In this document: positions 58,326-61,473 of the stretch, piece after piece
Layout of the letters: each line of letters opens with the position of its first letter
Numbering within the stretch: position 1 is the first letter of the stretch
NCBI GenBank assembly: GCA_937899835.1
Contig: CALCCE010000040.1
Coordinates: 1-61,473 of the forward strand
Length of the DNA: 61,473 bases
Source of the DNA: an uncultured Flavobacteriales bacterium
GTDB lineage: Bacteria > Bacteroidota > Bacteroidia > Flavobacteriales_G > Salibacteraceae
Direction of reading: 5' to 3'
Notes under the pieces: model-generated
Databases searched by the model: none
Seen by the model: the letters and a program-made list of their open reading frames with translations, nothing else
Told to the model about the DNA's origin: nothing
Program-made: the position numbers and the translations under genes

Positions 58326-58505
58326 CATCTTATTGGGTCAAATATTCCCATATCCATCCGTTCCTGAATTAATCAGGCCGTTGCTGAACTTTACTTTCAG
58401 GTTCGTGCACAAGGTTGAATACTTGTGGTGAAGCCGATTACCCACCGGCCTGCGGGAAAGCCGAAAACCGAAGACAACAGTAGGCCAACCAATTACCCAA
58501 ATCTT

Positions 58506-60296
58506 ATGAAAAAAGTTTTATTCGGATGCATGGGCGTCCTGTTCGCTGCCACGGCACTGGCACAACCTTTCAACAGCTCTTATACTTACAGCAGAACAAT
58601 CAATGACAATTCTGAAGGGCATCAGCTCATAGTAGAAGGTACCCAATTCAACACCATTGGTGTAGCCACACAAATTTTAGAACCGGGAAGCACCAATAAA
58701 TACGACCTGCTCATCACCCATACCGAACCCGACGGCACGGTCATCTGGTCGAAATCGTATGGCGTGTTTGGCCGAAATGAGAAAATTGGTGCCCTGGTAG
58801 AGTCTGACGATCAAAGTCTTTTTGTGTTGGTTGGTACTGCCGAGAATGCCCAGGGAAACGAAGATTTGTTGGTGCTGGGCGTAGAAATCGCTACGGGCAA
58901 CATTGCCTGGGAGCACGTTTATGGCAATGCATTTTCCATCGAACGTGGAACGGCCATTCTTTCTACCGGAAACGAACAAGGCTATCTGGTAGCTGGCACC
59001 ACCACCAACGGACCTAATGGCTTCCAAAGGGCTTATCTACTGCGCATTGATGCACAGGGAGGGGTGATTTGGGAAAAACGTTACGATCAAACACAAGGCT
59101 ACCAGACGCTTAGCCAACAAACGCCCTTGCAAATAATTCGTGCGGTGGGCGGTCCGGTTCGTCCGTCTTTTTCCTACGAAGGGTGCTTCTATGATGGAAA
59201 ACCGCACGATTACATTGTAGTGGGGAATTACCGTGACCTTACAAATCCCTACATCAACATCGACATTTTTGCTTTTGCCTTTAGTGGAGACGATGGTGCC
59301 ATGCAATCGCCATACTACACCTACAACCTGAGGCAAGACAAGATGAGTACCCGCCCCAAAATCCTGGCGCACAACGATGAATATTACATCACTTTTGACA
59401 GTGAAGATTACTTGCCCGGTTTTCATGGACAAACGGCTGGTTTCTTAAAGCTGAATGCACAGCTTTTCCCATTGCTGGGCAACCACTATTTTTCCATGAC
59501 CAACCATCGAGACTTTAGAACCCTGGGCGCTTTTGTGAATCCCAATGGGCAACAATTGGACATTGCCATTCAACTGGATGATCAAATCACCCAATCCAAC
59601 TACACGGCATCCACCGGATTTTTCTCAGTGGATTTGAATGGCGATGTTGTCAACTCTAATTTTTTGCTCCACTACAATGTGGGGGAAGAAATGGGAGGCG
59701 AGTTTTTTGCCCGTAAAAGCAATGGCTACCTCATCGGCGGTTTAGGCAACCACAGTTCCAGCGCCACCCCATCAGGAGGTCTTTTCATCTATTCCACCGA
59801 TTTTTCTGGCAATTCCAACAACTTGTGCGATGGCATCAATTTTATCGACAATGTTCGTGGGCCGTTGTTTTGCAGTTCGGAGGTGTTCACCGACAATAAT
59901 TTTAGTGTCCGCATGCCCATTAGTCTTGATGTGACCAACGAGACCGGCGATATTTCCAATTGCTTGCAAGGTGATTTTTACCAGTTTCGCAAAGCTGCTG
60001 TGGCTGACGAGGAAAACGCAGCGGCCGCTCTTGCGGACCAAATATCACTTTTTCCCAATCCCTTGGTGAACGGAGGAGCCGTTACCCTTACATGGCAAGA
60101 TATGGCAACCCAGCCCCGTAGTGTTGAAATTACCAATGCCTTGGGCCAAGCGGTAGCTCGCATCAACCTACTTAGTGCTTCTACAAGTGGTTCAGAGCGC
60201 TTAGATGCTAAGTGGTTTACCCCGGGGTTGAACATCGTGATGGTAAAGGATGATGCCGGACAAATTATTTTTTCTGAGCGGGTGATTTTGCAATAA
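58506..60296 (+). CDS. T9SS type A secreted beta-propeller-like protein
   Basis: 596 residues from the ATG at 58506 (an in-frame GTG at 58425 would add a non-signal leader). Signal peptide MKKVLFGCMGVLFAATALA. The body (about 25-500) has repeated blades of the form L-I-V-E-G-T/S...G-x-x-x-W-x-K/H-x-Y-G, e.g. GTVIWSKSYGVFG, GNIAWEHVYG, GGVIWEKRYD, and GYLVAGTTT/GYLIGGLGN strands, as in PQQ-like or Kelch-like propellers. The end is a type A sorting domain: LFPNPLVNGGAV, ITNALGQAVARI, TPGLNIVMVKDD, RVILQ. Secreted or surface-bound; ligand unknown. Confidence 0.88.
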   Translation: MKKVLFGCMGVLFAATALAQPFNSSYTYSRTINDNSEGHQLIVEGTQFNTIGVATQILEPGSTNKYDLLITHTEPDGTVIWSKSYGVFGRNEKIGALVESDDQSLFVLVGTAENAQGNEDLLVLGVEIATGNIAWEHVYGNAFSIERGTAILSTGNEQGYLVAGTTTNGPNGFQRAYLLRIDAQGGVIWEKRYDQTQGYQTLSQQTPLQIIRAVGGPVRPSFSYEGCFYDGKPHDYIVVGNYRDLTNPYINIDIFAFAFSGDDGAMQSPYYTYNLRQDKMSTRPKILAHNDEYYITFDSEDYLPGFHGQTAGFLKLNAQLFPLLGNHYFSMTNHRDFRTLGAFVNPNGQQLDIAIQLDDQITQSNYTASTGFFSVDLNGDVVNSNFLLHYNVGEEMGGEFFARKSNGYLIGGLGNHSSSATPSGGLFIYSTDFSGNSNNLCDGINFIDNVRGPLFCSSEVFTDNNFSVRMPISLDVTNETGDISNCLQGDFYQFRKAAVADEENAAAALADQISLFPNPLVNGGAVTLTWQDMATQPRSVEITNALGQAVARINLLSASTSGSERLDAKWFTPGLNIVMVKDDAGQIIFSERVILQ

Positions 60297-60330
60297 GGAA
60301 TTACAACAAATCTTCAATGATTTGATCGGG

Positions 60331-60378
60331 AAGGGGAGGGCATGGGCACAAGAGGCTGGCCCTCCCCTTAATTGTTTT
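60331..60378 (+). terminator. Terminator after the propeller protein
   Basis: AAGGGGAGGGC (60331-60341) pairs with GCCCTCCCCTT (60359-60369), followed by AATTGTTTT. Confidence 0.82.
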
Positions 60379-60395
60379 AGAATTTTCCCGCTTCA

Positions 60396-60425
60396 TTTGA
60401 AAAGCGTTAATATTTTTTACCTTTA
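60396..60425 (+). promoter_or_regulatory. Bacteroidota-type promoter for the GG-leader peptides
   Basis: TTTG at 60396-60399, an 18-base spacer, then TACCTTTA at 60418-60425. This differs by one base from the -33/-7 pattern TTTG-N19-TAnnTTTG. It would give a 5' leader of about 190 bases before the first peptide ATG. Confidence 0.5.
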
Positions 60426-60545
60426 TCAACATCATTTACATCAAAATCTGCACCTCATGATCATTTCTCAGCATCTTTCTCCTTAGTCCTGGGCATACGC
60501 TTCGGATTAGCGGTCTCAGCACCGTTTGTAAACCTTATTGATCGT

Positions 60546-60595
60546 AAAAAGACGCCCACCAACCAATCAAACGAATGGTGGGTTGTTGCTTTTTG
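60546..60595 (+). terminator. Terminator-like hairpin in the leader of the peptide genes
   Basis: CCCACC (60555-60560) pairs with GGTGGG (60577-60582); the flanks AAAAAG and CTTTTT can extend the stem imperfectly, ending in TTTTTG. It lies after the putative promoter and about 30 bases before the first ATG, so it could be an attenuator instead of an end point. Confidence 0.4.
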
Positions 60596-60623
60596 TGGCA
60601 CTCACCAACACCCCTAATTCACC

Positions 60624-60851
60624 ATGAAGTCTTTGAACTTAAACCATCAGAAAATTACCACCCTTACCAAAGCCGAACTCACCAATATCAAAGGAGGCGG
60701 AGAAAAAAACTCGAACCGGAAGATGGGCAATTGCGGATATTCCCGCAAACATCCAGGACGTCCAAATACCGCTGACCCGTATTGCCTACCCAAAAATGCT
60801 GCCGCTGTTGGGTTTCAGCCCGCAAGAAACGGATCTGCCTCTGGAAATTAA
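60624..60851 (+). CDS. GG-leader ribosomal natural-product-type peptide, copy 1
   Basis: 75 residues. The leader (MKSLNLNHQKITTLTKAEL, ending TNIKGGG at about 26) has the Bacteroidota GG-type form: an N-terminal LNL or LKL, a K-x-T-T-L-T/S-K-x-E helix and cleavage after Gly-Gly, typically by a peptidase-ABC transporter. The core of about 48 residues is basic with two Cys, in RKMGNCGYSRKHPG and PYCLPKNAAA, then a G/S/N-rich tail. Two Cys could make a disulfide or a thioether. It shares leader and core layout with the gene 60 bases downstream. No modification enzyme is in view. Confidence 0.82.
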   Translation: MKSLNLNHQKITTLTKAELTNIKGGGEKNSNRKMGNCGYSRKHPGRPNTADPYCLPKNAAAVGFQPARNGSASGN

Positions 60852-60911
60852 ACACTCGCTTACAAAAGCCATTTTTAATCCTTTTTTATTCATCCTTTAA
60901 TTTGTGACGAC

Positions 60912-61121
60912 ATGTTAAAATTGCACAAACAAAACATCACCACCCTTAGTAAAAGCGAAATGAACACCGTACAAGGTGGTGGCTACAAACGTTCGCAACG
61001 CAAAACCGGACACTGTGCGTATTCTTACAACCATACTAATAATACCGCCACCAGCTGTAAGCCAAGGCGTGCAGCTGCTCCTGGTCCCGTTTCACCCACT
61101 CCGGTAACGCCGGGTTCCTAA
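60912..61121 (+). CDS. GG-leader ribosomal natural-product-type peptide, copy 2
   Basis: 69 residues and a clear paralogue of the gene at 60624. The leader reads MLKLHKQNITTLSKSEM then NTVQGGG; the core keeps R-K-x-G-x-C-x-YS-x-x-H, then C-x-P-x-x-AAA, with a P/T-rich tail (PVSPTPVTPGS) in place of the G/S/N-rich one. Only the leader, the Cys spacing and the AAA are kept, which is what selection on a processed, bridged core would leave. It may be co-transcribed with copy 1 (60 bases between). Confidence 0.82.
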   Translation: MLKLHKQNITTLSKSEMNTVQGGGYKRSQRKTGHCAYSYNHTNNTATSCKPRRAAAPGPVSPTPVTPGS

Positions 61122-61169
61122 GGGGAAATTTAATTGCCTGTGCTAAACAAAGCAGGGAAAACCACTTGC

Positions 61170-61206
61170 AAGGGCCTACCCGAATTTCGGGTAAGGCCCT
61201 TTTTTG
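61170..61206 (+). terminator. Terminator after the GG-leader peptides
   Basis: AAGGGCC-TACCCGA pairs with TCGGGTA-AGGCCCTT around loop ATT (one bulge), with TTTTTTG following. 48 bases after the second peptide stop. Confidence 0.88.
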
Positions 61207-61473
61207 CTTTTGTAGCGCATCATTAGTTGGCCTTCATTACTACTTCTGAGTATCGGGAAATAAAAATTGAAACCCCATGTTGCGTTGTTCAAGAGTCTTC
61301 AAATTTCCCTTGAATGGTTTAACGTTTTAAGACGCAATGCCTTTTGAACAAAACATTTTGAGTCAAAACGGGATGAGAAATAAAAAAACATGGCAGTATA
61401 AAATCGGACCACTCACTGAAGAGCAGTCCGATTACCGTTGAGCTTAAAGCTCCTGTAACAATTCAATATGCAG
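61207..61473. other. Right-edge intergenic stretch
   Basis: No gene is supported. A hairpin AATCGGAC (61402-61409) / GTCCGATT (61426-61433) with a 16-base loop is followed, read leftward, by TTATA, so it may terminate a leftward gene lying beyond the window. Confidence 0.35.

Follow-up and report, generated by a model that had tools for sequence, protein, structure and literature searches.

A pair of GG-leader peptides in an uncultured Flavobacteriales bacterium as probable satellite precursors of a class I lanthipeptide system

Two short open reading frames lie near the right end of contig C40 of an uncultured Flavobacteriales bacterium. The window analysed here is this entire contig of 61,473 nucleotides; its source genome (G000) is a 6.9 Mb draft in 307 contigs. 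Both frames encode small peptides with a double-glycine leader, and no modification or export gene was found adjoining them within the window. To which class of peptides do they belong, and which enzymes would act on them? We favour, with a probability of about 0.78 for the explanation as a whole, that they are satellite LanA precursors of a class I lanthipeptide system.

The peptide pair and its surroundings

Peptide 1 (60624-60851, 75 aa) and peptide 2 (60912-61121, 69 aa) are encoded on a common strand and separated by 60 nt. A sequence-only reading had proposed that they are paralogues, and this is borne out by local alignment. The full-length score is 137 against a shuffle mean of 27.1 (sd 5.4), the cores score 72 (shuffled 25.4, sd 5.3) and the leaders 67 (shuffled 19.1, sd 4.3); none of 2000 shuffles reached the real score for the full peptide, the core or the leader. 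A window peptide used as query in its own genome retrieves its partner with an E-value of about 3e-11. All the motifs quoted in that reading are present in both peptides: leaders with KITTLTKAE and NITTLSKSE followed by GGG, cores with RKMGNCGYSRKH and RKTGHCAYSYNH, and C-x-P-x-x-AAA tails reading CLPKNAAA and CKPRRAAA (peptides 1 and 2, respectively).

The two genes form a unit bounded by hairpins (Table 1).

Table 1. Coordinates of the features of the peptide pair within the window.
Feature	Position	Strand	Remarks
Terminator-like hairpin between upstream gene (58425-60296) and pair	60331..60369	+	fold z -3.18
Precursor peptide 1, leader	60624..60701	+	26 aa, LxLxHx5L...GGG
Precursor peptide 1, core and stop	60702..60851	+	charge +6; Ser30, Cys37, Ser40, Cys54 conserved
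Precursor peptide 2, leader	60912..60983	+	24 aa, exact LxLxKx5L...GGG
Precursor peptide 2, core and stop	60984..61121	+	charge +7; tree partner is array member c10 (C103)
Intrinsic terminator closing the two-gene unit	61170..61205	+	bulged GC-rich hairpin then six T; -24.8 kcal/mol, z -5.24

The consensus terminator scan misses the hairpin that closes the unit, probably owing to its bulge. Positions 61158-61201 recur as a 91% copy on contig C284 of the same genome. A scan for sigma-70 promoters around the pair returned two promoter-like sites against 2.4 expected, and the TAnnTTTG pattern is absent from 60281-61130, a search run with no control. A possible attenuator hairpin just ahead of peptide 1 (60554-60583) was discarded, its fold z being only -1.6.

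A dispersed repeat fills the window from about 61310 onwards (61310-61473). Eight further copies lie on C251, C263, C155, C289, C196, C41, C278 and C134; for six of these a contig end is no more than about 200 bases away. Probably the repeat is a multi-copy element at which the assembly broke off. On its minus strand it reads like the end of a protein (...HIELLQEL stop). The sequence-only reading had suggested that the maturation enzymes might lie beyond the right edge. Because a strong terminator closes the unit and the contig ends in a repeat, enzymes of the same operon are unlikely to follow there; the enzymes were found instead on contigs C103 and C281.

A precursor family and its enzymes in the same genome

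When the genome was searched with each peptide, eleven more members were found on C103, arranged head-to-tail in one orientation (C103:27783-31568), which brings the family in G000 to 13. Matches on C21, C290 and C150 (E 0.13 to 0.84) were too weak to count as family. Terminator-like hairpins follow array members c9, c10 and c11, and a terminator scan of the array stretch on both strands gave 13 hits against 7.1 expected.

The alignment of the 13 members has 14 invariant columns. With three members from two other genomes (G004 and G406, see below) it has 16 rows, one of which lacks its N-terminus at a contig edge; positions are numbered after peptide 1. Ser30, Gly35, Cys37, Ser40 and the final Cys are present in 16 of 16 members, so that the two conserved core cysteines have possible serine partners throughout. 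Position 32 is Arg or Lys in all 16, position 33 is basic in 14, and Thr34 occurs in nine. A basic residue stands directly ahead of Ser30 in 13 members; peptide 1 has none there. The description of the peptides as two-cysteine holds for the window pair and fails for the family, in which two to five Cys follow the leader, two of them invariant. The tails are variable but fall into types: CCGEP..LGC in c1, c5 and c7, VCDCVGKNG..VVGC in c4 and c9, and TATSCKPR in c10 and peptide 2. The net charge of the core ranges from +3 to +10 in the G000 members. A cationic core is not a family trait, since the three members from G004 and G406 have core charges of 0, -1 and -1.

Phylogenetic analysis groups peptide 2 with c10 (support 91/82), while peptide 1 sits on a long branch and is weakly placed near c4, c7 and c9. 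This topology bears on a rather unlikely alternative, namely that these satellites have decayed or fallen out of use, being what is left of a duplicated array block and no longer modified. Peptide 1 resembles c7 and c9, peptide 2 resembles c10, c9 adjoins c10 within the array, and the pair lies off the array beside a dispersed repeat, all of which would fit such an origin. Against decay, both frames are open, every position invariant in the 16 members is kept, and the pair has a strong terminator of its own.

Profile searches place the peptides below every curated threshold. Pfam gave nothing over cut-off, with no weak match for peptide 1 and three for peptide 2, and only weak matches for the 13 paralogues (best E 0.011). 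The NCBIfam model of lanthipeptide leaders NF038153 (lant_leader_L1a) scores both window peptides at 17.3 bits and the G406 and G004 members at 19.5 and 17.7 bits, under a cut-off of 22. The statement of the sequence-only reading that the core pattern fits no named class agrees with this result, the core passing no curated cut-off. The leader is of a described type, that of the LxLxKx5L...GG class I precursors of Bacteroidetes. Model TIGR04149 for radical SAM-modified peptides gives 13.7 and 18.5 bits for peptides 1 and 2, below its cut-off of 25. The sub-threshold score of peptide 2 is what speaks for products of that kind; with the score under cut-off, and with the genes tested at the array and on C281 being LanC, LanB and S9, we regard this reading as very improbable.

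A LanC-type cyclase gene (C103:31684-32883; PF05147, 124 bits; WCHG and CHG motifs) begins 115 nt past the last array precursor and ends 14 nt short of the end of C103. The sole match to PF04738 in the genome is a LanB at the very start of C281, a contig of 6374 bases. It is a single protein with both dehydratase domains (PF04738, 347 bits; PF14028, 197 bits) and aligns to NisB residues 64-985, about 60 N-terminal residues being missing at the contig edge. Thus LanC adjoins the paralogue array, LanB is on another contig and neither adjoins the window pair. C103 and C281 are separate contigs; from the gene order in G406 and G004, and from where each contig breaks, we infer that C281 follows C103 in the genome. 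The sequence-only reading had named LanB, LanC and a peptidase-ABC transporter as genes to look for near the peptides. LanC and LanB exist on C103 and C281 and again in G004 and G406, with a C39 peptidase-ABC transporter in G004, and none of them stands beside the pair.

No C39 transporter adjoins the C103 array, and G000 has four C39 matches. The one most similar to the G004 transporter (62% identity) lies on C16, with an HlyD-like gene after it; it adjoins other GG peptides, not the array. In that stretch (L152:113-6028), two Cys-rich GG peptides have the C39 ABC transporter/HlyD-like gene on one side and a weakly C39-matching protein on the other, and by its gene content this appears to be another peptide export system of G000. 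The second LanC-like gene of the genome, on C290, belongs to a different cluster. There (C290:31485-35313; L031:6986-10814) an ORF of 106 aa carries four repeats of [DE][DN]CCW[IA][AV][VI]ATTSC; next come an APH-like kinase, a HopA1-family protein and LanC. This arrangement resembles a class V-type lanthipeptide cluster whose precursor is multicore.

Relatives in other genomes and the S9 fusion protease

The peptide profile was searched against sets of genomes which overlap, and some searches scored no more than 15 candidates per genome. Matches were found in two of 60 relatives (G000 included), in nine of 395 genomes of the class at 0.001, in four of 395 genomes of the phylum at 1e-4, in two of 42 genomes of the order and in two of 46 genomes of the family of G406 (G406 itself and a cousin, G763). 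In the class set the core occurs in G000, G004 and G406 only, and in the phylum set in G000 only. The core is present in these three genomes only among those searched. Weak profile matches in G091, G229, G239, G312, G325 and G333 were rejected, none having the R-S-x-R-R/K...G-x-C-x-Y/F-S core.

Both other genomes are Flavobacteriales MAGs in which precursors, LanC and a separate LanB share one contig. In G004 (contig C35, DNTB01000059.1), 13.7 kb contain two precursors, of which the contig edge truncates the first, then LanC, LanB, a C39-peptidase ABC transporter, HlyD and one unassigned gene, together with an S9 fusion gene on the opposite strand. In G406 (contig C35, CAJQOH010000035.1), precursor, LanC, S9 fusion and LanB lie on one strand, and reading the ORFs of the 19.9 kb stretch revealed no C39 peptidase. 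In the cousin G763 (E 2.5e-8) the order is precursor, LanC, LanB, C39 transporter, HlyD. Its core has only C-x-Y-S...G-C in common with the family, the R-S-x-R-R/K head is absent, and no S9 match was found in 19.8 kb. A further LanB-like ORF and two further LanC-like ORFs were read by eye upstream of the family member in G406 (L064:112-7300), and a second lanthipeptide system may therefore be present on this contig.

With LanB as bait, 141 stretches were confirmed and 80 loci kept; the family core occurs in two of the 80, those of G004 and G406. Other features of these loci were noted in passing. The LanB locus of Flavobacterium supellecticarium (L092:14251-22221) has 28 GG-leader ORFs, many near-identical and many with one Cys or none past GG. 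Bacteroidota-like LanB loci also occur in MAGs titled Limnohabitans and Neobacillus (L102 and L104), whose contigs are possibly mis-binned.

The broad idea of the sequence-only reading, an exported, bridged, ribosomally made and modified peptide of Bacteroidota, is upheld by the paralogue array beside LanC and by the LanC and LanB genes of G004 and G406. Because the array adjoins LanC in G000, and the same core occurs with LanC, LanB and S9 in G004 and G406, the window peptides are very probably class I lanthipeptide precursors. They could instead be class II-type GG-leader bacteriocins, unmodified or with a Cys37-Cys54 disulfide: there are two invariant Cys and a GG leader, and matches to bacteriocin models occur below threshold. 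We consider this improbable: LanC adjoins the paralogues in G000, LanC together with LanB accompanies them in G004 and G406, and Ser30 and Ser40, from which lanthionines could form, are conserved without exception, like the two Cys.

On C281 the ATG of an S9 gene overlaps the LanB stop by one base. The encoded protein of 1146 residues comprises a signal-peptide-like start (judged by eye), a CarbopepD_reg_2 domain, some 350 residues without Pfam match and an S9 peptidase domain. The best solved structures for this domain are those of oligopeptidase B (E 4.4e-76). The alignment has GTSAGG, HDQ, GHRG and EYDEWGNP in common, and the catalytic Ser, Asp and His as well as the acidic stretch of oligopeptidase B are all present. 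We take the acidic pair in the EYDEWGNP stretch to confer specificity for basic residues. The oligopeptidase B equivalog model NF007511 scores the C281 and G004:C35 proteins at 312.5 and 388.2 bits, below its cut-off of 1313; as judged by sequence, they are relatives of oligopeptidase B and not the equivalog itself. A structural model of the fusion (L072, two-row alignment) had a mean pLDDT of 28.6 and was set aside.

The middle region of the fusion was compared with the 395 genomes of the class, no more than five candidates per genome being scored. At 1e-5, 54 genomes match. Strong matches (E <1e-50) are confined to four genomes and five places (G000:C281, G406:C35, G004:C35, G004:C79 and G369:C12), and the remaining 50 genomes have weak ones. 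No precursor or LanC was found near G004:C79 and G369:C12 within the 8.3 and 16 kb read, and these two homologues weaken the idea that the fusion is specific to lanthipeptide loci. In the S9 tree the G000 protein pairs with that of G406, and that of G004:C35 groups with G369:C12. By gene order and tree, the protease is firmly linked to the lanthipeptide operon in G000 and G406. The link is loose in G004, where its gene lies on the opposite strand and groups with the G369:C12 homologue.

Is the fusion then a maturation protease? We put this forward tentatively, at somewhat less than even odds. A competing role, as a general exported peptidase or as an immunity or nutrient-uptake partner degrading peptides, comes close to an even chance. 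The homologues at G004:C79 and G369:C12, with neither precursor nor LanC in the stretches read, and the cousin cluster of G763 without an S9 match point that way. The position of the gene argues for maturation: in G406 it is flanked by LanC and LanB, all on one strand, and in G000 it overlaps the LanB stop. In addition, the G763 precursor lacks the R-S-x-R-R/K head, as would be expected if the protease serves this head, although this is a single contrast.

An S9 gene adjoining LanB is not peculiar to this precursor family: 16 more of the 80 LanB loci, mostly from Chryseobacterium, have near LanB an S9 gene that is shorter and lacks the EYDEWG stretch. A prolyl-oligopeptidase-like identity was considered for those of Chryseobacterium, but the four tested score best, if weakly, with the model of oligopeptidase B (144 to 165 bits); we claim no contrast in specificity with the fusion. 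At seven loci with the shorter gene near LanB (L094, L096, L107, L118, L134, L149 and L151), the GG-leader ORF alongside has no Cys after GG, and so the LanB products there may be free of lanthionine.

Proposed maturation and comparison with known systems

In the pathway that we propose, LanB would dehydrate the invariant Ser30 and Ser40, to which LanC would then couple Cys37 and the final conserved Cys. The N-terminal ring, spanning S-x-R-R/K-x-G-x-C, would be constant and the C-terminal ring variable. One LanB/LanC pair would serve 13 different substrates, and modification of the window pair in trans by the C103 and C281 enzymes is probable. During export, a C39 transporter would cut the leader after GG(G). 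The S9 protease might then trim after a basic residue, either the Arg/Lys ahead of Ser30 or the basic residue at 33; the former is the more plausible site, because a Ser30-Cys37 ring would enclose residues 32-33. The expected outcome is a limited number of two-ring peptides that have the head in common and differ in the tail. Those of G000 would be cationic and most likely serve against competitors, an antimicrobial role being slightly favoured over that of a signal. Taken as a single scheme, a combinatorial class I set of 13 substrates that share a constant head ring and differ in the tail ring, two being encoded at a distance from the enzymes, combined with two-step proteolysis by C39 at GG and then by an exported oligopeptidase B-like S9-CarbopepD_reg protein after a basic residue, is a speculative proposal with odds clearly against it.

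The favoured reading assigns a defined set of enzymes to two peptides that had looked like orphans. It implies an unusual class I layout, in which one LanB/LanC pair would act on 13 distinct precursors with fixed head and varied tail, two of them encoded elsewhere. The occurrence of the core in three searched genomes only makes the family a fresh test bed for the substrate tolerance of LanB and LanC. If the S9 protease does mature the peptides, it would add to class I a second step specific for basic residues, which could be useful for peptide engineering.

Class I precursors of Bacteroidetes have been described with LxLxKx5L leaders that end in GG, and with C39 proteases often but not always in their clusters (Walker et al. 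2020, PMC7268733). Our family shares the leader, exactly in peptide 2 and with His for Lys in peptide 1, as well as the GG end and separate LanB and LanC. A C39 transporter is encoded in the clusters of G004 and the cousin G763, and none was seen in the G406 stretch or beside the array of G000. Compared with the main description of that group, its own features are the core S-x-R-R/K-x-G-x-C-x-Y/F-S-...-C, the 11 distinct precursors in an array plus two elsewhere, and the oligopeptidase B-like S9 gene by LanB; the supplementary precursor list of the survey may contain a relative. Within its span of seven genes either side of LanC, that survey singles out a cluster of 10 distinct class I precursors as a notable exception (PMC7268733).

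According to the same description, pinensins are the only lanthipeptides isolated from Bacteroidetes (PMC7268733). The family is like them in phylum and enzyme class. Pinensin clusters carry a split LanB, whereas the family's LanB is one protein with both domains. Prochlorosins and other one-enzyme lanthipeptides have many precursors, some of them encoded at a distance, and rely on a class II LanM synthetase. The likeness lies in one modifying set with many precursors, some encoded away; the difference is that the family would use LanB and LanC.

In the sections consulted of the two works cited here, two-step leader removal after a C39 transporter is described for class II (cytolysin, lichenicidin and mersacidin; PMC10885120), and S9 oligopeptidases for classes III and IV (PMC10885120), with FlaP (PMC10885120) and LanPB (PMC7268733) as S9 proteases of class III. 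Among open-licence papers, none on oligopeptidase B together with lanthipeptides was found by title. Our system would resemble these cases in having a C39 transporter followed by a second protease, and an S9 enzyme in maturation. It would differ in that the context is class I and the protease, in a putative role, is an oligopeptidase B-like S9 domain fused to CarbopepD_reg. As far as the literature and genome searches reach, the family would be a new variation on known class I lanthipeptides.
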